DNA of 29,768 bases from IMG/VR virus record IMGVR_UViG_3300017598_000103, positions 1 through 29,768 of that record. The stretch is one strand, 5' to 3'. Source of the stretch: a virus. Within the stretch, counting starts at the first letter, position 1; each line of letters starts with the position of its first letter. Below are positions 1-22,083 of this stretch, one piece after another. The notes under the pieces are model-generated. The model searched no databases, was not told the origin of the DNA, and saw nothing but the letters and a program-made list of their open reading frames with translations. The position numbers and the translations under genes are program-made.

Positions 1-1392
1 CTGTAGGTCATCACTATCACCTAGTAATAATTTACCGCCATCAGATAGGTCTACATTACCAGTAAAAGTAGCATCCTGACTTGAATCAATACGCAACCCA
101 ATATTTCCAGCACCATCACTAATAACTATTTGATTAGATAATGCAGCATGGCTTGAGCCAGTATAACCCCCTATATACACATTATAGTTACCACTTGTTA
201 ACGCATTCCCTGCATTAACACCTAAGCCTATATTATAACCCCCGGCTGTAGTGCTTATTGCATTAAGCCCTACAGCAGTGTTATTGTCTCCTGTCTGTAA
301 TGTTGTTAAAGAACTCTTACCAATAGCTGTATTACCTTTACCAGAAGTAATAGAATCCCCTGCATAAGACCCAACAATTGTGTTATCTGCCCCTGTACAA
401 ACATTGAGTGCGTTATATCCTACGGCTGTATTGTCATCGCCTGTTATTGTTAATAATACCCCGCTACCTAAAGCAGCATAACCTAAAGCTGTATTCCTAT
501 TAGCTGTGGTTGCTGATGCTAAAGCAGCAGAACCAAGAGACACACTATTTATTCCAGATGTTAATGCTGCAGAAGCCGTATAACCAATCGCTGTGTTATT
601 TGCGCCCGTAGAATTATTTAAAGAAGATGCGCCAACTGCTGTATTATTAGATGTTGTATTAGCTAATAATGCATTTAATCCAACAGCAACATTGTTAGCC
701 CCACTAACATTAGCTCCAAGAGCATCTTGTCCGACAGCTGTGCAATTAATTGCTGTCGTCATAGCATCTCCTGCACTTTTACCTACAGCAGTATTCCCTG
801 CACCAGTGGACAAAGCTAAAGCAGCGCTTCCCACAGCAGTTATTTCATTGCTTACTTGTGCCCCACCAGCGTTATAACCGAGAAATGTTCCTGATGAGCC
901 TGTATATACTAAACCTGCTTGATACCCTACCCCAACATTATTTGAACCAGTTACAACATCTGTTAAAGCATTCACACCTACACCAGTATTACCTGAACCA
1001 GAAGTAACGCTATCTAATGCTGCTGTACTTAATGGTGTATTGTTACTGGATATTGTGCCTATCATTGCTGCTGCTAAGGCTATTGTAGGGGAATTACTAT
1101 TTTGCGTAGTTGTGGCATCTCTTAATGCCTGAGTAGCTGCTACAAAATCACCTGCTGTAGGGAATACATATGCAGGTTGTATAGTTTGAGAAGCATTAGG
1201 CCATGGATCTACTAGATGTATAGTGGTTACTGGGCCAGCAGATTGTTCTGCATAATTTATCTCTACTGGGGGAAATGATCCAACAATTAGAGCATCACCT
1301 GCTGATATGTTGACTGGATCTTCATCGGACACAACATCTACTAGTAATGAACCATTAGCTATTGTTACAGACGCTGCGGTATACCAAGTCAT
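1..1392 (-). CDS. NTAVG-repeat adhesin / tail fibre (3' end outside window)
   Basis: The frame is open from an ATG at 1392 to the window edge, giving 464 residues without a stop. The start has an AGAAGG ribosome binding site seven bases upstream. The N-terminus (MTWYTAASVTIANGS, then a GDAL motif near residue 32) has the style of short N-terminal domains shared by many phage fibre and virion proteins. From about residue 130 to 430 the protein is a run of short repeats of the type NTAVG-x-x-AL (variants NTALGYAAL, NNVAVGLNAL, NTAIGKSSL), spaced mostly 14 to 25 residues apart. Such repeats resemble the left-handed beta-roll head repeats of YadA-like trimeric adhesins and occur in phage fibres. 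The inferred role is a trimeric receptor-binding or distal fibre protein. It sits last in the tail module behind its own candidate promoter. The C-terminus, which may hold a chaperone domain, is not visible. Confidence 0.8.
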   Translation of the reverse strand, partial: MTWYTAASVTIANGSLLVDVVSDEDPVNISAGDALIVGSFPPVEINYAEQSAGPVTTIHLVDPWPNASQTIQPAYVFPTAGDFVAATQALRDATTTQNSNSPTIALAAAMIGTISSNNTPLSTAALDSVTSGSGNTGVGVNALTDVVTGSNNVGVGYQAGLVYTGSSGTFLGYNAGGAQVSNEITAVGSAALALSTGAGNTAVGKSAGDAMTTAINCTAVGQDALGANVSGANNVAVGLNALLANTTSNNTAVGASSLNNSTGANNTAIGYTASAALTSGINSVSLGSAALASATTANRNTALGYAALGSGVLLTITGDDNTAVGYNALNVCTGADNTIVGSYAGDSITSGKGNTAIGKSSLTTLQTGDNNTAVGLNAISTTAGGYNIGLGVNAGNALTSGNYNVYIGGYTGSSHAALSNQIVISDGAGNIGLRIDSSQDATFTGNVDLSDGGKLLLGDSDDLQ

Positions 1393-1473: not shown

Positions 1474-10037
<8,564 letters not shown>

Positions 10038-10856
10038 TTAGTCCTCATAATAGTAAGGTTGATCAGCACCAAAATTCCAGCCATCACCGCCACCTATATC
10101 AATTAGTGGAGGTCTAGCCCAGTGGTAAGAGAATGAAACCTTAACAAACTGCACGCCTGTAGCAGCAACTGTATCAGTAACTGTCACTCGGTACGTAGCC
10201 TCTGCCGTTTCTGTTTCAGTTATAGCAGCGGGTGCACTTAATGTAGAACATGTAAATGTAGGGTTAGCAATACTTGTACTGTCGATAGAAATATCTGCGT
10301 GCCCCTCGACTACTTCCCACAAATAAGTGTCTGCGGCGCTAACTATAGGCTCTGCTATCGTTGCAATAACCTGCCGCGTCATATTAGTTTGTGGGTCTAC
10401 TGCACCTGCAGGAGCTGTATTAGAGGTATGTGTGTATGTATACGCAGCAGAGTATAAGTTGTCATCAATAAGCGCTGTTACTGTTGGGTCTACCCCTGCC
10501 AAAAGAATAATCAGTGAGTGCCCATCCACAACTACCGGCTCAGGAGCAACAGGATAGTCATACTTGTCTATATCATTGTAACGAGTTTCAAGCACTGTTA
10601 CTGCAGCATCAACCGTCCATGCCATCCACGAAATGGTATCGTTAGTACTAGCTTTAAAAAAATTAGTATAACCATCGAAATTAGCAGATAAATCAGAATT
10701 GACATCAACACTATCAACAGGCTCATAAAAAGGACGAATAGTCTTATCAGTGAGGCGAGCGTTAACAGCATGTGACGCAGCCTGCTCAGGCAACGCGTAA
10801 TTAGGAACACGTGGGGTTACTCCAGTAAACTGTTCAATTGCGATTTTTTTAGCCAT
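10038..10856 (-). CDS. N-terminal part of a split nozzle protein with Ig/PKD-like C-terminus, 272 aa
   Basis: The opening (IEQFTGVTPRVPNYALPEQAASHAVNARL) matches what I know as the N-terminal signature of phage nozzle or tail tubular-B-like proteins: FxGxxPRxxxxxLPxxxAxxAxNxxL. The WMAWTVDAAVTVLE stretch near residue 78 also fits that family. In those relatives one polypeptide continues into the propeller. Here the frame enters an Ig/PKD-like region (about residues 110-250, with YLWEVVEGHADISID and YRVTVTDT) and ends in an acidic Tyr-rich tail. The next gene then starts at once with the propeller part. I infer a two-chain nozzle. The start overlaps the stop of the giant gene as TAATG. Confidence 0.6.
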   Translation of the reverse strand: MAKKIAIEQFTGVTPRVPNYALPEQAASHAVNARLTDKTIRPFYEPVDSVDVNSDLSANFDGYTNFFKASTNDTISWMAWTVDAAVTVLETRYNDIDKYDYPVAPEPVVVDGHSLIILLAGVDPTVTALIDDNLYSAAYTYTHTSNTAPAGAVDPQTNMTRQVIATIAEPIVSAADTYLWEVVEGHADISIDSTSIANPTFTCSTLSAPAAITETETAEATYRVTVTDTVAATGVQFVKVSFSYHWARPPLIDIGGGDGWNFGADQPYYYED

Positions 10857-13800
10857 TAGTCATTGTACCTTTTTTTACGCCTTTCAGCACGCGCTTCTTT
10901 TTTCCACTCTCTCCAAAGACCCGGTGAAGTAATACCAAGTATTGGGGTAGTTCTTTGCACAAACTCAGGGCTAAAAGGCCCATATTTAACTAAAGTATCT
11001 AAATGCCCCATTGTCGGGCCAAGCGCGCGTATCACACCAGACTGCCCAAATTGCTCAGCATCATAGAAAGACATCATTAAATCTACCGGGCCGAGCACGC
11101 CGGAAGCGCGTACTAAATCAACTAAACGTTCACCAGCGCCCATCTTCTCTAAATACTTATCTCGACGTTCTTCGTAGTCATCATCAGCTAACTCTCGAAT
11201 ACTAGCTTTAAGTTCTTGCGATAAGTAAGCTAAAGGAACGGCCATTGTACCGATAACAACTAAAGGTAAAGCAGCATTCATTCCAGCAAGCACGTGAGCC
11301 TTATCTGCACGTCGTGCACCACTATAGCGATCAGCCATAGTCTTCCCTAGTTCCGGGATGATGTCTGCGCCATACGCGTAAAAGAAACTTTTCAGCTGGC
11401 TAATCAGCATAAAATGCGGGTCATTACCAGACACCGATTTTGACATAGAAGTAGGTCGAGCTACATGGTGGTCTGCAAAATTCAACAAAGCATTTGCCAT
11501 AGGGGACAGCGTACTGGTGCCTTCTATAAAACTCTTTCTACCTTCTTTATCCCATTGTAATACTTGTTCTGGAGTAACCCCAAAACGTTTCATCGCTTTA
11601 GCATCACCAGCTTTTGCTTTTTTAATGAAGTATTCCGCCCCAATATTACTAGCTATAGACCGCAAGGAATTATTAAATAGTATGTTTAAATTATAGGTAA
11701 ATAATTTCTCCATAGCCGCGCGAGGTTTATTACCCTGCACTTCGAAATCAGAAGAATCTATAAACCCGGTAGCTGTTAGTGCGTCAGGAATAGCTCCCAT
11801 TAAGCGGGCGAGCTCCATAGAATTATTCCGCGCTTGTTTTATAGCCTCTTTTACCGACATGCCTTTTTCTACATTCTGCGAGATTTGTTTTGTATAATCA
11901 CCAGTATCCCGAACAAATTGTTTTAGCCCTTTCCACGCGGCTTCTGGGTCTTTACCAATAGCACCAGCCATTAAAACACCAAACTCCGGGATAGAACTTA
12001 AAGTAGAAAAAGCCAATACAGTATACGCTTGCACCACAGTTAGCCACTGCATAGATTTTCTAATTTTTGGGTTTAGCTCTCGGCCAAGCAAACCATCCAT
12101 CGCGTTCATACTCTTCCTTGCTTCGTGCACCGCGTCAAGACCTTTAGTTTCATTAACCGTCTCAAGTAATTTTAGTTTTTTAGCTCCAGCAACCCATACA
12201 TCAAACATAGCTTTTTCTTTCTTATTACGACGAACCAGCCCGCGTTTGTTAGCATCTACCATAGCCTTTTTTAGAGCCTCTGGGTCTTTATCACGCACTG
12301 TATACCCATAATTTCTGAGTACAGAAGGCATATCCTCAAGACTTTTAGTTTCATAACCACCGAAAGTCTCTTCATAATTCTTTTGCTTCATCATAGAAGA
12401 AACATAAACCTCCATAACCGCACGAGGGTCTTTATTCAACCACCCAGCGTCAAACGCTGCTGCTTGGTAGTCAGGGTCAACAAGAATACGTTTCTTTGCA
12501 GATGCTGCTTCAGGGCCAAGACTTTCACCATCAGATTGTTCAAGGATACTATCGGCTATAGCGGTAGCGCTCTTTTTATTATCTAAAAGATGCATAGTTC
12601 CGTCATACCCACGATAAGAAAAAGGTTTCCCATTTTTACCCCTCATCAAAAACTTAATGAATCCTTCTTTATCTGCACGTATAACGTCCTGCATATGTAT
12701 TTGTGGGAAGTATGGACGCCCGTTAATAGTTAATTCTAAAGACCCAAAATGCTTTACAGAACTTTCTTGCATATTCTTTATAACCTGCTTAAAAAACCCT
12801 TGCATCTTGTCTGTAACTGGCGTCCCAGTTTTTCCGTGAATATAATCAGAAAACCCCTGCTCCATCTCCACTTCACTAAACTCACGGTATATATTATTTA
12901 ACATAGCCTTGAACTGTGACTCATCCGCATGAAACTGTCGTTGGTACTTTTCGTACAAACGACCGAGCATAGGGCTGACTCTTTTTACTCGCCGCATACT
13001 TGTTAAAAAAGGAGTAACCACATCCAGAGAGAGTTCTTTAACTCGAATAGCTGTGTTCTTTGTAAATACTTCTCTAAGCCCTTTAGTGATTTTATTCAAA
13101 GGGATACGTTCACGAGGAGTGAATTTTATCTCATCGACAACACCGCCAACTTCATATCCTTCTGCTTGGAGCTGCTCGTTTCTTTTTTGAGTAGCCTCTT
13201 CCATTGACAAAGTGATAATTCTTTGCGACTTTGTCTTTTTGTGTTTAAGCTCCCTAATCAGCCCTCTAACATGTGGGTTATTAATATCGCTGGAAGGAAC
13301 TAAATACTCTTGCGCTACTGCTGTAGAAGTAGCACCTACTACCTGTACTACCCCCGGAGTATTTGTTTTTTTATATATTTCTGTAGGACTCAACGCAGCT
13401 TTTGGGCGAAGAACTCTATTTGCCCTTTCTACTCCAGTACGTTTAACACGGGTTATGTAATTAAAGGCTCTTTTTTTATTATTGAAATAGACATCGCCTT
13501 TTAGCATACCATCATTAACTCTAGTTTTATAAAGTGTCGCTTGGTTCTGTGTTTTTACAGTTTCTAACTTACTAACTAGTGGCGTGTTTGCAGGGATTTC
13601 CGTTTCTATAAATACTCCAACCGCTCTTCCTTTTCTTACTTCTACTAAACGCGTCTGAATACTTTTTTCTGAAAGTTTCTTTGTACGTGTTTTAGACTTA
13701 ATAATATTAATCGCGCGTCCAGCACTATCTTGCTCTACCTTACCCATTAACTTTGAGTTATCAGCTGCTATGGCCTCAGTAACACGAATAAGCCTCGCAT

Positions 13801-16800
13801 TTAAAGAAGTACCCATAACCCCAAAAAATTCACGTACTGCCTCAAACAGCCGGTGTAAAAAACCTTTGCCTTTTAAGTATTCCACTAATAATGGATTAGA
13901 GCGACCAGAAGCCATAAACTCAGAAACTGAGTTTATATTATTAGGGTTAGTCTCAAAAGCCGCAATAATATCTTCGTTTGTTATGATATTGTCTTTAGCT
14001 AGTTGCTTTTTAAAATCTTTGTATGTTTTTAGTATTTCTTCAGAAAAATTAATTAGCCGCCCTAGAGACTCTGCATCTGTATCTGTCAACTGCTTCAAAA
14101 CCGCTACATGTTTTGTGTCTGTGATATTTTGTAAAGTATTATTTTGTACCCTTGTAATAAGTTCTTTGACTGAACCTTTTTTATCCCCAAACTCAGCAAA
14201 TACAGAATCAGCCACTGCGCCATGAAACATTGAAACCGAATGCATTAGTTCATGCAACAATACCTCGCCACCAAAACCTTCGGGTACTTGATATGCTACT
14301 TTAGCGTTATCCGGTAAGTAAAGCGTGGCAAACGCAGTTTTTTTCTTTGTTTCTGGACTGTATGTGCCCTTACCTTCAGATTCTTTTGAAAGAACAAAAA
14401 TATTAACGTTATCAGGCAAATTCTTTAGCGTATTTTTAAATTGTTTTTGCAGTGTACGCGGCAAAGCCCGTTCAAATATTTTTTGGACTTCTTCACGAGT
14501 AAACATTGTATAATTATTATTACCGCTAGCTTCATCCTCAATATACTTATGGATTTTATTTTGCGCCTGAGATAGTGCTGATTTTCTTCTTTTCTTGTTA
14601 ACTTTAAAAAAGCTAGCTATAGACTCAAGATCCAAATCGCTTTTTTGTTGCGCTTTTTTTAATAGTTTGTCGGCCTCTTTTTTTAGTTTAACTCTCTTCT
14701 TAGCCTGTTTAATAGCCGCCATAATACTTGCTGTTTCTTTCCCTGCACTTCTTGCTTTATCATACTGCTTTTGTAAATCTTGAAGCTCTACTGCTTCCTG
14801 ATCCATCAAGATTTTTTCATCGGGGGCTTTATCCCGTTTTTCCTGCTGTGTAATTTGGTCTTCAATACCAGTATCAGTTTCAATTTTCTCTGTAATAGTC
14901 AGTTGCTCATCCATAGCCTGACCTTCAGAAATAGTCTCTACTTCTGAGGCTTGTTCTTCAGATAGCACAGGATTATCAACTTCTGCAGTTTGTGCAAGCT
15001 CCTCTTCTGTAGGAGCACGACCTGTTTTTTCAGCTTCAGCACGTGCTATACGTTCTTTGTCTTTAATTTTTTCTACTTTTTGTGGTTCAAGTTGAACTCC
15101 GCCAGAAGGGGCACCTGTGCCTCTTCCAGCTTCACGAGCTGTTTCTTTCTTTTTGGCTATTTCTTCGTTAATTTTTCTGTCTGCTACGCGCTTCTCATCG
15201 TGCGCATCAAGCTCGGCTTCTTCCTGCCTAATAATAGACTCTCGGATCTCCAAACTCGCCTCGGGCGACATACGTTCTATAGATTGTTTTGGGAAGTCCT
15301 TCTGCATTTTTGCCATAGAAACTTCTACATCAGCCTCAGTAACTATTGTATCTTGCACTACAGAATGTACACTACCGTCTTCCATAATATTCGCTGCAAC
15401 TATAACAACGGGTTCAGTACCTGCAATTTCAGATTCTGCCAATACCTGTGTTTTAGGCTTAGCCCATTTTGGTTGCGTAACAATATTCGCTTCTTCTGCC
15501 GACTGCTCGTTAACTTTAGCTTCGTATTCTTTTGCTAACTTTCTACTCTTAAAATAAGTGCGTCCCTTTTGGGTACTATCAAGCTCAACTACAAAGTAAC
15601 CGTTTTCATCCCGTTTACCAATAAAACGAGCCTTTTGGCCTTCAGGAAGCGAAACGCTATCATCTGCATCAAAAACCGCTCTTTTCTGCCCACTGTTGAG
15701 CATCTCAAGTTGACTTTCAATACTACGGCGGGCCTCTGGATCAGTCTGTGGCACATCTTCAGCAGTTACTACTCCTTCGTCATCTCTTTCAGCGCGTTTC
15801 TTCTTAATATCTTCGAGCCGCGCCGCGCGGCTCATTTTTTGTCCTGCAGTTTGTACAACAGCTCCGGGGAGGCCGATAGCCTTACCAGCAGCAAAGCCGA
15901 CTACGAAAGACTCGAGCACCGCATCAGTATCTTTATCGCTCCACTCGCGATCTAAACTAGTATTAACCGCCACTGCATCTGCAACGGCTTGGAACGCTTC
16001 AGTCGTGCCCTCAGCCGCAGCTGCTTGCATAACTTTAAAAGGTACCCGCTTAAACATTTGGGCACGAGTTAGTTTAGCTTTTTTGGCTGTCTTACTAGCA
16101 CGTAAGCCCATACCCACAAGACGGTTTAATCCGGGGATAGCTGCAAGGCCGACCATATCAGCCGCACCTTTTACAAGACCTGTGAACCAAACCTTTGAAT
16201 CATTAGATATACCTTCGCGGTCAAACGTAATTTTAGTCTCACCGGTATTCATACCTATTGAAGCTACACCTGCACCAACAGCTGCTCCACGCTTATAGCC
16301 AGTAGCCATAGCTGCTTTTTTCAAATCCGCACGATCTTTAACGAACTTTTTCGCCATCGCTTTTGTAACTAAAGAAGTTCCAGCTATTTCACCGCTTGCA
16401 AGACGTGCAGTAGCGGCTCGCATTGCAGCACCGCCTATACCGCCAGTAGCAAGAGCTGAAGCAATGGTTGTTCCTATATTTGGAACTTGCTCAATAAGTG
16501 TTTCGTATACAGAGCCAAGTGATTCTGCAAAACCTTCAGCTTCTGTCCATGACCTAGTCTCGCGAGGATTAAGCATCATGGTAAGAGTATTTTCGTCAAT
16601 GCCTGCCTGTGCTAATTTAGATAGTCCTTCAGAACCAACAGAGTCACCAACCAGTTTCATAAGCCCATAACCCATCTGCTGGACTTGATCTATTCCACGG
16701 TCTATGGCCTTGCCGTGCATACCGCGCTTAACAGTAGAGCCTATACGTTCAGAGTTACCGCGCACGCGTTTGATGTATTCTGCTTGGTTTCGTTGGTGGG

Positions 16801-17257
16801 TATCAAAATCGGAACGTTGTTGTGCAGTAGGCGCATTTAAACCATGGCCTCTATTATCTAACAAAAACTTGTTAGCTATAGCTTCTTGTTGTGGGTCAGA
16901 AGAACTAGTAGGGAACGCTTGCCCGCGCGACAAAAGCTCATGGGAAAGTAACTGCCCTGCAGCGTCTCGTCGGTCACCAAGTCTACGGCCATAGTAACCG
17001 CGCTCATGCCAAAAAGAATTACCGCCAAACTCGCTGGTAGCTCCCTTCTCATATTTCTGCGCCGTTTCAAACGCATCTTCAGCTCCGGGCTGAGGTCGCC
17101 CGTATCGCCCTTTCATCTCAGGCGTGTTTACCCCTTTTAAACGCAGCGCTTCATCGCTACCATAAGACGTACTATCACCTTCTACACCATAAAGTGTATC
17201 ACCATCATAGGCCTTTAAATCTTGCTGCTCTTTAAGAAAAATATCATAAGCACTCAT
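10856..17257 (-). CDS. Giant ejection (internal virion) protein: SNase-like + zincin-like domains, 2133 aa
   Basis: Residues about 14-120 resemble the staphylococcal nuclease fold: DGDT (Asp18, Asp20), LRLKGVNTPE (Arg39, Asn44, Glu47) and YGRRLGD (Arg91), followed by LLSRGQAF. The catalytic Arg, Glu and Arg are present, but the second calcium-ligand Asp is Asn44. Hydrophobic, Gly/Ala-rich segments lie near 256-285, 366-385 and 447-470, with an EGTTEAFQ motif at about 413, as seen in polyvalent phage proteins. A charged, coiled-coil-prone stretch covers about 680-900. HELMH (1002-1006) with a downstream SEFMA (Glu1113) indicates a zincin-type metallopeptidase domain. Further hydrophobic helices lie near 1736-1765 and 1990-2013. 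Position and size match T7 gp16 (1318 aa), the ejectosome protein that crosses the cell envelope, though I see no lytic transglycosylase motif. Start: ATG at 17257, with a weak GCAGGT-type site. Confidence 0.78.
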   Translation of the reverse strand: MSAYDIFLKEQQDLKAYDGDTLYGVEGDSTSYGSDEALRLKGVNTPEMKGRYGRPQPGAEDAFETAQKYEKGATSEFGGNSFWHERGYYGRRLGDRRDAAGQLLSHELLSRGQAFPTSSSDPQQEAIANKFLLDNRGHGLNAPTAQQRSDFDTHQRNQAEYIKRVRGNSERIGSTVKRGMHGKAIDRGIDQVQQMGYGLMKLVGDSVGSEGLSKLAQAGIDENTLTMMLNPRETRSWTEAEGFAESLGSVYETLIEQVPNIGTTIASALATGGIGGAAMRAATARLASGEIAGTSLVTKAMAKKFVKDRADLKKAAMATGYKRGAAVGAGVASIGMNTGETKITFDREGISNDSKVWFTGLVKGAADMVGLAAIPGLNRLVGMGLRASKTAKKAKLTRAQMFKRVPFKVMQAAAAEGTTEAFQAVADAVAVNTSLDREWSDKDTDAVLESFVVGFAAGKAIGLPGAVVQTAGQKMSRAARLEDIKKKRAERDDEGVVTAEDVPQTDPEARRSIESQLEMLNSGQKRAVFDADDSVSLPEGQKARFIGKRDENGYFVVELDSTQKGRTYFKSRKLAKEYEAKVNEQSAEEANIVTQPKWAKPKTQVLAESEIAGTEPVVIVAANIMEDGSVHSVVQDTIVTEADVEVSMAKMQKDFPKQSIERMSPEASLEIRESIIRQEEAELDAHDEKRVADRKINEEIAKKKETAREAGRGTGAPSGGVQLEPQKVEKIKDKERIARAEAEKTGRAPTEEELAQTAEVDNPVLSEEQASEVETISEGQAMDEQLTITEKIETDTGIEDQITQQEKRDKAPDEKILMDQEAVELQDLQKQYDKARSAGKETASIMAAIKQAKKRVKLKKEADKLLKKAQQKSDLDLESIASFFKVNKKRRKSALSQAQNKIHKYIEDEASGNNNYTMFTREEVQKIFERALPRTLQKQFKNTLKNLPDNVNIFVLSKESEGKGTYSPETKKKTAFATLYLPDNAKVAYQVPEGFGGEVLLHELMHSVSMFHGAVADSVFAEFGDKKGSVKELITRVQNNTLQNITDTKHVAVLKQLTDTDAESLGRLINFSEEILKTYKDFKKQLAKDNIITNEDIIAAFETNPNNINSVSEFMASGRSNPLLVEYLKGKGFLHRLFEAVREFFGVMGTSLNARLIRVTEAIAADNSKLMGKVEQDSAGRAINIIKSKTRTKKLSEKSIQTRLVEVRKGRAVGVFIETEIPANTPLVSKLETVKTQNQATLYKTRVNDGMLKGDVYFNNKKRAFNYITRVKRTGVERANRVLRPKAALSPTEIYKKTNTPGVVQVVGATSTAVAQEYLVPSSDINNPHVRGLIRELKHKKTKSQRIITLSMEEATQKRNEQLQAEGYEVGGVVDEIKFTPRERIPLNKITKGLREVFTKNTAIRVKELSLDVVTPFLTSMRRVKRVSPMLGRLYEKYQRQFHADESQFKAMLNNIYREFSEVEMEQGFSDYIHGKTGTPVTDKMQGFFKQVIKNMQESSVKHFGSLELTINGRPYFPQIHMQDVIRADKEGFIKFLMRGKNGKPFSYRGYDGTMHLLDNKKSATAIADSILEQSDGESLGPEAASAKKRILVDPDYQAAAFDAGWLNKDPRAVMEVYVSSMMKQKNYEETFGGYETKSLEDMPSVLRNYGYTVRDKDPEALKKAMVDANKRGLVRRNKKEKAMFDVWVAGAKKLKLLETVNETKGLDAVHEARKSMNAMDGLLGRELNPKIRKSMQWLTVVQAYTVLAFSTLSSIPEFGVLMAGAIGKDPEAAWKGLKQFVRDTGDYTKQISQNVEKGMSVKEAIKQARNNSMELARLMGAIPDALTATGFIDSSDFEVQGNKPRAAMEKLFTYNLNILFNNSLRSIASNIGAEYFIKKAKAGDAKAMKRFGVTPEQVLQWDKEGRKSFIEGTSTLSPMANALLNFADHHVARPTSMSKSVSGNDPHFMLISQLKSFFYAYGADIIPELGKTMADRYSGARRADKAHVLAGMNAALPLVVIGTMAVPLAYLSQELKASIRELADDDYEERRDKYLEKMGAGERLVDLVRASGVLGPVDLMMSFYDAEQFGQSGVIRALGPTMGHLDTLVKYGPFSPEFVQRTTPILGITSPGLWREWKKEARAERRKKRYND

Positions 17258-17265
17258 ATAACCTG

Positions 17266-19122
17266 CTACCCATTGTATGCATTAATAGCATTAACCATTA
17301 ATCTAACGTCACTAACCCCTTTGTTCTTTGGGTCGGCCTTAGCGGTCTTAACTTTCTGCATAATATGCGCAGCTACGCTACGCCCTGAAGATTTACCACG
17401 AGGGTCTTCATTAATACGGTCGGATATGCTTTGAAAACTAGTAGCAAATTCATCAACCCTATTGTAAAAGTCTTCTCCTTCTAGGCCTTTTAAAAAGCCA
17501 CCGGAAGTAAGGTCTGTAGCAATTATAGCAGTATCATATGATAAATCATCTGTATAAGGTGCAAGTTTTTTAAACATGGGATCGACTGCAGCTGCATCAT
17601 CCTCAGTAAAATCTGTATACGGGTTATTCATTATTTGTGACTTCTTAATAGCGCCTAAAGCTTTCTCAGGCCACCCACCAGAACGATAATCCGTTTTGAT
17701 ATTTGAATTAAGAAATTTGTAATGGTCAATAACGGCCTTACGATTAGCATCACGAATCTTGTTCAACTCCGCCCTTGCTTTTTGGCTATTACGCTGTGCA
17801 AGCATCTTATTGCGCATATTATAATGATAGTTAGCATCTTGGTGGTTCATGATACTACTAATATCGCCCGCATCCATTTTGATACCCATCTTCTGCATAG
17901 CTGCTATATGCGCGCGACTTCGTGCTACTTCCGCTTTATCAGCTGCAGTTCGCGCGTTGTTATAAGCTAATTCAAGCTGCTTATCTTTAGCAATCCACGC
18001 CGCTTCGGCGGCTTTTTTATCTTTAACATCTTCTGGAGCTACTTGCCCTTTAGTAACTTTCTCAACTACTTCAGGGTTTTCTGTTAGCGCTTTTTGTTTA
18101 GCTAGGATTTCTTTCTCTTTAGCTAGTAGCTTAGTATGCTGCGAATTATTGTTTTTCTCCATCTCTCGCTGCTTTTCTATATCACTACCAGCCCTAAAAC
18201 CTCTATCAGAAACATGTAAAGAGCGCAGACGGCTAGGAGTTTTCGACGCTGTTTCTATCTCTTCTCGTACAGCCTTCAGCTCTTGGTCCAATACATCTAA
18301 AGCTACATTTCTTTTTATGTTTGCTGCCGACTGTTCTTGTGTCATCGGCTTTGCATCGACAGCAGGCGAGGCACCGCCACCTAAGCCCGGCTTGCTTGCT
18401 CGGTGTGCACCCCATGCGCTCCATGTATCACGTACACCGGCATTGGCCTGCACATAATTATCATCAAAGGACTGAAGCCCTTTTGATAGGCTATCTACAC
18501 GTTTATCTTGTCGATCTAACTCAACATTTCCAGCTTTAAAAGCATCATTAAAAGAGCCGTCCATAAGACCCATAACGTCATCAACTGTCATGGTTAATGG
18601 GACTCCTTTATTATCAGCGACCACATTACCATTTTCATCAGGATGGGCTGCATACCCTCCCTGCTTATTAGTTATAGCAACTAGAGGTTTCCCGGTTTTC
18701 TCGTCAAAAGCTCCGGCGGTTAGTGTATCTAACTCGTTACCTGTATCCAATTCTTTCATGGGGCGGCCAGTAGCTTTCTCAAAACCAGCGCCAAGTATTT
18801 CTTTTACATAAGCATTATTCTGTAAGCCGTTATTAAAGTGCGCGAGCACCTGCCTACCATAAGCTTCTTTCTTGTCATCAGGAGCGGCATCATATTCTTT
18901 TTTCATACTATGCAGTCTGCTGCGCCATGCTTGCGCTGCCTGCATATTTTCGTTTCTTTTAGTTCTTCGGTTATCCTCATCGAACATATCTTGCTGCAAT
19001 TTCTGCTGTTGTTGGAATTGATCCGCACCGACATTAAACTCATATCGACGTTGACGGGCATTAGCGCTTCGTTGAGCTAGACCAGCACCTGCCATTATAC
19101 CTTCTAAAATAGGATTACTCAT
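17266..19122 (-). CDS. Internal virion protein, T7 gp15-like by position, 618 aa
   Basis: The protein is hydrophilic, with Gln-, Ala- and Lys-rich helical stretches. The N-terminus (GAGLAQRSANARQRRYEF, then FQQQQKLQQDMF) and several coiled-coil segments (about 250-330 and 350-450) lack any transmembrane helix or catalytic motif I recognise. It lies between two small Ala/Met-rich proteins and the giant 2133-residue protein, exactly where T7 gp15 (747 aa) lies relative to gp14 and gp16. T7 gp15 is the helical, periplasm-spanning tube of the ejectosome. I infer the same role from synteny, size and composition, not from sequence identity. The gene starts two bases after the previous stop. Confidence 0.6.
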   Translation of the reverse strand: MSNPILEGIMAGAGLAQRSANARQRRYEFNVGADQFQQQQKLQQDMFDEDNRRTKRNENMQAAQAWRSRLHSMKKEYDAAPDDKKEAYGRQVLAHFNNGLQNNAYVKEILGAGFEKATGRPMKELDTGNELDTLTAGAFDEKTGKPLVAITNKQGGYAAHPDENGNVVADNKGVPLTMTVDDVMGLMDGSFNDAFKAGNVELDRQDKRVDSLSKGLQSFDDNYVQANAGVRDTWSAWGAHRASKPGLGGGASPAVDAKPMTQEQSAANIKRNVALDVLDQELKAVREEIETASKTPSRLRSLHVSDRGFRAGSDIEKQREMEKNNNSQHTKLLAKEKEILAKQKALTENPEVVEKVTKGQVAPEDVKDKKAAEAAWIAKDKQLELAYNNARTAADKAEVARSRAHIAAMQKMGIKMDAGDISSIMNHQDANYHYNMRNKMLAQRNSQKARAELNKIRDANRKAVIDHYKFLNSNIKTDYRSGGWPEKALGAIKKSQIMNNPYTDFTEDDAAAVDPMFKKLAPYTDDLSYDTAIIATDLTSGGFLKGLEGEDFYNRVDEFATSFQSISDRINEDPRGKSSGRSVAAHIMQKVKTAKADPKNKGVSDVRLMVNAINAYNG

Positions 19123-20779: not shown

Positions 20780-21403
20780 TTACCAACTAAACGCGGCTAT
20801 GCGCGTGCCCGGAGTACGTGTCTCCTCAGCTCGAAGTTTCGCATCCGCAGTACGGCTTAAAAACTTATTCAAATGATACTGAGATAATTTAATATCGGAC
20901 CAGCTCTCTTGAGGCATTTCATATAATCTATACAAAGCGCCATCCAAAATAGCATCTTCAAACTCGTCTACAATAGCGTCATCTATTTCAGTTGCTGTGC
21001 GAGTAATAGATAAAACTATTTTCATAGTCACTATATCATCAGCAGTAGGTGTAGGTAATAGCTCGAAAGTATCGTTATCCACAAGGGTAACGTATTTAGA
21101 GTCTGTTGAACCTGATTCAAAATCAGGAGTTACATATGCTTTTCCTGCGTCACGTAAATAAGCTAAATTAGTATTACTTGTTTGTAATTTGGCATAAACA
21201 ATATCATGCACCAAAGTTCCCGTAGGTTGAGTAAACGAATACGCATTAGATCCTGCAGTAATAGCGCCACTAAAGTCTACACGCCATGCGCGAGATTTAC
21301 GGAAAAATTCTCGAGCACTTTCACGAACCAAACGTTCAAGCATAAACGCGGGAGCTTCCCGTGCCTTTATCCGCAATAATTGTGCTAAATCAGAAATAAG
21401 CAT
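20780..21403 (-). CDS. Head-tail connector / adaptor-like protein, 207 aa
   Basis: The N-terminal helix contains an ESAREFFRKSRAW motif, which in my knowledge marks a family of podovirus neck or tail-adaptor proteins. It continues with a beta-rich middle (DFSGAITAGSNAYSFTQPTGTLVHDIVYAKL, then FELLPTPTADD) and ends with a C-terminal helical region containing DEFEDAILDGALYRLYEMPQ. This alpha-beta-alpha arrangement is typical of proteins attaching below the portal. It is joined by TAATG overlap to the 226-residue adaptor gene. The exact ring it forms (upper or lower) cannot be told from sequence alone. Confidence 0.6.
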   Translation of the reverse strand: MLISDLAQLLRIKAREAPAFMLERLVRESAREFFRKSRAWRVDFSGAITAGSNAYSFTQPTGTLVHDIVYAKLQTSNTNLAYLRDAGKAYVTPDFESGSTDSKYVTLVDNDTFELLPTPTADDIVTMKIVLSITRTATEIDDAIVDEFEDAILDGALYRLYEMPQESWSDIKLSQYHLNKFLSRTADAKLRAEETRTPGTRIAAFSW

Positions 21404-22083
21404 TAATCAACCGCCTGTACTATTGCTGGTGGTACGTTTCTATCAGGGGCTTCTGTATTTTCTGCGACTAACTTACCAGTAAGCCCTTGAACAAAAGCAC
21501 CATAATAACCGGAAGCAAGATTCATATTACCAGAAAAATCTGAATCCTTACTAAACGCACGCCAAGCGACGTAGTTCGTTAAAGAAGGCCCATATATATC
21601 TTGCAGCGGTATTGAATCTCCCACCACTGTAACTGCAGTAGGAACAGCGGCGTAGACTAATTCAATAGTGGCGCCGGCTGTAGCAGGAGGGTAAGTATAG
21701 AAAAAATCACGCTGACGCGTATTATACATATAATGTTGAAGAGTCAGACTCGAGGTTACGCTACGCCATGTAGGCATCTCAGTATCTAAAACATTACGTT
21801 TTACATAAGTAACTGGTAGCTCTGTACCACCGCCTGTAGTTGTATTTGCTACAACATCGAGCAATAAAACCAGCTCAAGCGCTAACGTACTAAGCCCTTG
21901 CTTATACCCAGCAACGCATGTGAACTCTTCAGTAATAGGGTTACAGTCTGGTTTAATAAGCACAGCTTGACGGATAGCCTCATTAATCCAGTCGATTAAC
22001 TCTGCATCAGTCCAGCGAACTGCAACTGGGTCTATCAGTATAGCTCGAGCGTCGTCGATAATATCTCGGACAGTTAGCGCCAT
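21403..22083 (-). CDS. Phage adaptor protein (DUF6682-like), 226 aa
   Basis: The N-terminus reads RDIIDDARAILIDPVAVRWTDAELIDWINEAI, followed by KPDCNP. This is the signature of a phage adaptor family in which an LxD-x-RWxxxELxxWxNxAxR helix pair precedes a beta-sandwich (labelled DUF6682 as I recall it). The middle part holds a Gly-Thr-rich loop and a YPPATAGATIELVYAA strand, and the C-terminus is helical (YGAFVQGLTGKLVAENTE). The position directly after the coat protein fits a portal-proximal neck ring. The start is an ATG with AGGAG seven bases upstream. Confidence 0.65.
   Translation of the reverse strand: MALTVRDIIDDARAILIDPVAVRWTDAELIDWINEAIRQAVLIKPDCNPITEEFTCVAGYKQGLSTLALELVLLLDVVANTTTGGGTELPVTYVKRNVLDTEMPTWRSVTSSLTLQHYMYNTRQRDFFYTYPPATAGATIELVYAAVPTAVTVVGDSIPLQDIYGPSLTNYVAWRAFSKDSDFSGNMNLASGYYGAFVQGLTGKLVAENTEAPDRNVPPAIVQAVD

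Follow-up and report, generated by a model that had tools for sequence, protein, structure and literature searches.

The giant gene and its genomic setting

The window, i.e. the whole stretch of 29,768 nucleotides analyzed here (IMG/VR record IMGVR_UViG_3300017598_000103), carries on its minus strand a giant open reading frame that runs from an ATG start at 17257 to 10856 (10856..17257 (-)) and encodes 2133 aa. Its product is assigned as a giant ejection-type protein by homology to KPP25 ORF088, phiA008 gp66, and the LUZ24-type particle proteins. A preliminary description had proposed that this ejection protein combines a nuclease-like and a zincin-like domain; the motifs on which that proposal was based are located in the frame as claimed, i.e. 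DGDT (residues 18-21), LRLKGVNTPE (38-47), and YGRRLGD (89-95), together with HELMH (1002-1006) and SEFMA (1112-1116, including Glu1113).

The giant gene follows the genes for head and adaptor proteins in the late operon, a position that agrees with that of particle proteins of the LUZ24/KPP25 lineage. In reading order, genes for terminase, portal, an acidic probable scaffold, a probable major capsid protein, and two SU10-type adaptors are followed by three small genes, a 618-aa gene, and then the giant; downstream of the latter come a 272-aa gene, with a match to a PHROG annotated 'internal virion protein', and the fibre genes. The 618-aa gene (17266..19122 (-)), directly upstream of the giant, is by position a candidate for a gp15-like ejection protein; its order and size parallel those of a 681-aa gene adjoining the giant of phiA008, and BLASTP gave no sequence similarity bearing on a gp15-like identity. 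The order of gene sizes around the 2050-aa phiA008 giant closely parallels that in the window. Two further features of the window are the adjoining SU10-adaptor family genes at 20780-22083 (-), apparently a tandem head-tail adaptor pair, and a 1991-aa fibre-like protein (1474-7449 (-)) with collagen-like runs between other parts.

Both the giant and a test segment of 5 kb from the window are present at 100% identity in a 49,255-base IMG/VR contig of the same virus, which adds ~22 kb with genes for a family-A DNA polymerase, an SNF2-type helicase, and a PD-(D/E)XK nuclease, among others. In L120, an SNF2-type helicase (9003-10356 (-)) occupies two frames that overlap (helicase_C at 9003-9608 and the SNF2 N-part at 9499-10356); the split could stem from a frameshift or a sequencing error, or the frames could be two genes in their own right. 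Scans of the whole giant with Pfam, PHROG, NCBIfam, and PADLOC gave nothing firm, phmmer against the PDB gave no relevant match, and IMG/VR scans, whether with the entire giant or with its zincin region, returned the identical contig only. An Rfam scan of the window gave no match.

A two-module chassis with two cargo sites

At the level of sequence, the giant is built on a chassis of two modules, an N-module with hydrophobic segments followed by a C-module, with two cargo sites, one at the N terminus and one between the modules. The N-module (residues 192-499; 15761..16684 (-)) has hydrophobic segments (356-374 and 450-468) and an EGxTExxQ motif, with Glu420 and Gln423 invariant across 15 members; it is likely the membrane-facing part of the chassis. 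The C-module (residues 1344-2128; 10874..13228 (-)), which is linked to KPP25 and phiA008 by tblastn, is conserved more strongly than the rest of the ejection protein and has two further hydrophobic segments.

Module HMMs built from the giants were run on particle proteins of ~1,000 aa from phages tf and JB8, which they match in the same order. In tf_51 the best N-module stretch covers residues 56-308 (42.6 bits) and the C-module residues 303-981 (192.7 bits); the corresponding ranges in JB8 are 69-316 (38.1 bits) and 340-1027 (161.6 bits). Since the match ranges adjoin, the modules are contiguous in these proteins of 1,021-1,043 aa. The window giant keeps the order, with the modules separated by a cargo insert of ~845 residues (500-1343; 13229..15760 (-)) that is absent from tf_51 and JB8 and holds HELMH.

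The giant is homologous to phiA008 gp66 and KPP25 ORF088; a weaker homology links it to the ~1,000-aa particle proteins that LUZ24-type Pseudomonas phages encode. Of 15 members tested, 14 match PHROG 'virion structural protein' families, the window giant not being among the matches, and relatives are annotated as virion or particle proteins; a virion location for the window giant is accordingly predicted from its relatives. The modules shared with LUZ24/tf/KPP25-type particle proteins, taken with the gene order, argue for the ejection-protein identity that had been proposed. In IMG/VR, relatives that share the C-terminal region are common, one scan giving 284. Three giants of the family alignment match an endolysin PHROG and one a virion RNA polymerase PHROG, so this chassis may accommodate additional enzymes; one giant of >3,200 aa (L013 3-9671) has three HExxH motifs.

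An N-terminal SNase domain

Residues ~12-124 of the giant (16886..17224 (-)) form a staphylococcal nuclease (SNase) domain, as identified by leave-one-out HMMs, a profile search of the PDB, Foldseek, and invariant columns. Leave-one-out HMMs recover each of six seed N termini, that of the window being found by the other five at E ~1e-14. A profile of the six sequences matches 283 distinct solved sequences in the PDB at E up to 1 (best E 5.6e-10), and the best 60 of these 283 are all SNases or thermonucleases. Five of the six aligned domains match PF00565 with E values of 1 or below, the best being 2.5e-8; taken alone, the window scores 13.2 bits against a cut-off of 21, whereas phiA008 scores above it (29.9 and 35.7 bits). 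The AF2 model of the region is of modest confidence (pLDDT 57), and with it the PDB matches listed by Foldseek are all SNases (E 4.8e-4, probability 1.00, TMt ~0.55).

Residues D18/D20, R39, N44, E47, and R91 of the window correspond to D19/D21, R35, D40, E43, and R87 of SNase. D18, D20, R39, E47, and R91 are among just 16 invariant columns of the domain alignment, the core catalytic residues (D20, R39, E47, and R91, equivalent to SNase D21, R35, E43, and R87) all being invariant. Asp40 of SNase is a Ca2+ ligand; the Asn that replaces it in the window (Asn44) is found in several members and also in phage SNases that are 137-aa stand-alone proteins. In the SNase region of L080 and L090, the only close pair, dN/dS is 0.135, indicating purifying selection. 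Against phages and plasmids, tblastn with the SNase region of the window alone found no credible relative, and a scan with the SNase alignment found stand-alone SNases of 137-138 aa only. Profile, modeled fold, and invariant catalytic residues thus bear out the nuclease-like domain of the preliminary description, with core catalytic residues intact and nuclease activity predicted.

A candidate zincin in the insert

For the family as a whole, a zincin-like domain is well supported. Of 85 full-length relatives, 83 have an HExxH, where ~1.3 would be expected, and mostly in the same mid-protein region; the usual form is HExGH followed by FEEWxADQ, so a zincin in the insert can be regarded as a family trait. 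Pfam M48/M78-type families match several members (best 4e-6), and phiA008 and L111 are examples of relatives in which the assignment is firm. A family zincin HMM built without the window matches phiA008 and L117, which were likewise outside it, at E ~1e-22.

The copy in the window (residues 893-1190; 13688..14581 (-)) is likely a divergent zincin-like metallopeptidase. It comprises HELMH (1002-1006; 14240..14254 (-)), which aligns with the HExGH of relatives, and Glu1113 (13919..13921 (-)), the candidate third zinc ligand, which lies in SEFMA where the family has EEWxAD, but at a longer spacing and with low confidence in the alignment. When the window is aligned with 29 relatives, His1002, Glu1003, His1006, and Glu1113 are the only four invariant columns, although this alignment of 30 regions, which included the window and relatives selected on the presence of both motifs, is no independent test. 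The family HMM has no match at residue 1002; KPP25-type members, which have HESMH and are equally divergent, are missed by it too. In an hhalign comparison with a profile from which the window was left out, HELMH, SEFMA, and the FLHRLF helix fall in register with HElGH, EEWfA, and FkRia, at a probability of only 18%. The AF2 model of residues 893-1190 is of low confidence (pLDDT 56), with a three-strand sheet, an HExxH helix, and a Glu helix in an order fitting a zincin; Foldseek with it gave no match, and the hit list was discarded since the model was too poor. Nor did tblastn with the zincin region alone find a credible relative among phages and plasmids. The zincin-like domain anticipated earlier is therefore upheld for the family, and the order of structural elements fits it in the window, but the window copy is termed a candidate because it is missed by the HMM, poorly modeled by AF2, and unmatched by Foldseek.

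Distribution of the SNase-zincin combination

SNase-like N termini are present in eight family members, i.e. the window, phiA008, L036, L080, L090, L111, L116, and L117, the seven others also being phage or prophage proteins. In a FastTree analysis of the C-module the SNase-bearing members cluster, none of 500 shuffles being as low, and within the tree the domain is confined to a single region. Its distribution takes two changes to explain, e.g. one gain and one loss in a 62-member clade, with L116 included and three truncated members excluded; the placement of the window itself is unsure because of long branches. Such giants are rare: one was found among 294 genomes in the order of Motiliproteus, the remaining matches being frames of 260-400 aa. 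The SNase-zincin giant L111 (NZ_QQOH01000001.1, ~1.37 Mb) lies in a 1.5-Mb contig of Motiliproteus coralliicola, a culturable marine bacterium, and is probably part of a prophage. Two large phage proteins in BFVD (1,368 and 1,342 aa) match the SNase model, the latter, from an uncultured phage, being labeled 'SNase-like'; database traces of large SNase phage proteins thus exist.

Proposed mechanism and alternatives

The explanation that we prefer, tentatively and as one somewhat more apt to be revised than to stand in full, is that the giant is a gp16-like podovirus ejection protein in which an envelope-side SNase cuts nucleic acid there and the zincin trims the giant chain. The giant would be packed in the capsid, leaving it ahead of or with the DNA, and may then refold in the envelope, its N- and C-modules lining a channel. 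By analogy with T7 gp16 the SNase would lie toward the envelope, a location rich in its Ca2+ cofactor, and could cut nucleic acid in or on the envelope, while phage DNA inside the channel would be spared. The most likely substrate of the zincin would be the giant chain that bears it, trimmed either ahead of ejection or following it so that cargo is released or removed. Autoprocessing by zincins has been proposed for polyvalent proteins, but N4 vRNAP, which bears a zincin, is packaged unprocessed, which speaks against it as a rule (PMC5512222). Further points counted against the preferred explanation are the sub-threshold Pfam score of the window SNase, Asn in place of Asp40, and the failure of HMM and Foldseek to find the zincin.

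With the same architecture, the nuclease could instead be freed by the zincin into the cytoplasm and attack host DNA or RNA early, as a polyvalent effector, which we consider a possibility, if an unlikely one. Polyvalent proteins have been proposed to bring such effector domains into the host (PMC5512222), and the SNase domain looks, from its residues, catalytically intact. However, an unspecific SNase released there would threaten the incoming phage DNA as well, and the position of the domain, ahead of the hydrophobic N-module, resembles that of the enzyme domain in T7 gp16, whose location is periplasmic (PMC8954989). The metal supply also matters. SNase requires Ca2+, and cytoplasmic free Ca2+ is low. 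The periplasmic location of the T7 gp16 domain, the need for Ca2+, and the danger to phage DNA are the reasons for placing the SNase on the envelope side.

A second alternative, which we regard as distinctly unlikely, is that HELMH in the window arose by chance or is a nonfunctional relic, such that the giant has an SNase but no working zincin. Shuffling the giant yields HExxH in 37 of 2000 shuffles (1.9%), so that the motif alone is only suggestive, and the outcomes with the family HMM, hhalign, and Foldseek given above point the same way. Against this, HELMH sits in the insert where nearly all relatives have HExxH, its register with SEFMA and FLHRLF was obtained with a window-free profile, and the KPP25-type members show that escaping the HMM is compatible with having the motif.

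It is also conceivable, but improbable, that the SNase domain is real and serves binding or assembly, e.g. as an OB-fold contact to DNA or a core protein, rather than catalysis. SNase-like domains without activity exist, and Asn at the Asp40 position in several members would suit such a role; the invariance of all four core catalytic residues, among so few invariant columns, and the presence of the same Asn in the 137-aa stand-alone phage SNases argue otherwise. That the giant is an assembly or scaffold component that is not ejected is very improbable, in that its relatives are annotated as virion or particle proteins, it has hydrophobic modules, and its gene lies in the late operon between the head/adaptor and fibre genes.

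Returning to the envelope-side SNase, a speculative and unlikely extension is that the giant carries, within the virion and fused to the ejection channel, a Ca2+-dependent nuclease that is placed at the envelope and degrades nucleic acid in the vicinity of the entry site, its release being controlled by the zincin. If so, the SNase of this ejectosome would target extracellular or periplasmic DNA and RNA, rival phage DNA included, its own genome being shielded in the channel. The architecture suggests a plug-in logic, in which a channel chassis of two modules and ~1,000 residues offers two cargo sites, one nearly always with a zincin and the other sometimes with an SNase. The long-standing question of the role of ejection-protein enzymatic domains after entry is concerned here, and testable members are at hand in the cultured Aeromonas phage phiA008 and in the prophage-like locus of the cultured M. 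coralliicola.

Comparison with known systems

The LUZ24/tf-type particle protein (tf_51, LUZ24 gp50 lineage) has homologous modules in the same order and, like the window giant, is last in the core/ejection gene cluster; unlike it, the protein is of the 1,021-1,043-aa type, with contiguous modules and neither an SNase nor an HExxH insert. KPP25 ORF088, a Kochitakasuvirus virion structural protein, shares the C-module and a large insert with HESMH, and also the N-module, but in frame upstream of its annotated start; it differs in lacking an SNase and in the flavor of its zincin (PEERxAYxYE, not EEWxAD). The annotated start of ORF088 (NC_024123.1; L007 ~551-1300, minus strand) looks too late, in that the frame runs ~250 aa further upstream to an ATG and there holds the N-module with an EGLTEGAQ motif. 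A parallel in domain content is gp66 of Aeromonas phage phiA008 (UIS74281, a hypothetical protein), with SNase, N-module, zincin, and C-module, albeit at ~25% identity, with a standard zincin (HELGH...DEWFAD), and with Asp at the SNase Ca2+ position.

T7 gp16 likewise has an N-terminal enzyme domain, a lytic transglycosylase, before the channel part (PMC8954989), but this is a cell-wall enzyme rather than a nuclease, and the two are likened by domain placement, not by homology. The review of ejection proteins (PMC8954989) mentions no nuclease or protease, the polyvalent-protein paper does not mention SNase, and in open-licence literature, at the level of titles and abstracts, no paper describing an ejection-protein SNase was found; the earlier suggestion that SNase and zincin in one chain may be undescribed stands within that literature. 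SNase would thus be a nuclease class beyond those mentioned in the polyvalent-protein paper.

N4 vRNAP and polyvalent proteins resemble the window giant as giant ejected chains with a zincin and another enzyme (PMC5512222, PMC12633501), but have RNA polymerase, ART, lysozyme, and similar domains in place of the SNase. Polyvalent proteins as delimited by Iyer et al. (2017) hold unrelated enzymes in one chain; in the window giant the SNase is present and the zincin likely. A zincin in giant ejected proteins is therefore already described (PMC5512222, PMC12633501), and the added SNase is a variation on a known type of protein, the combination of the two in one chain being common to a small group of distant phages.
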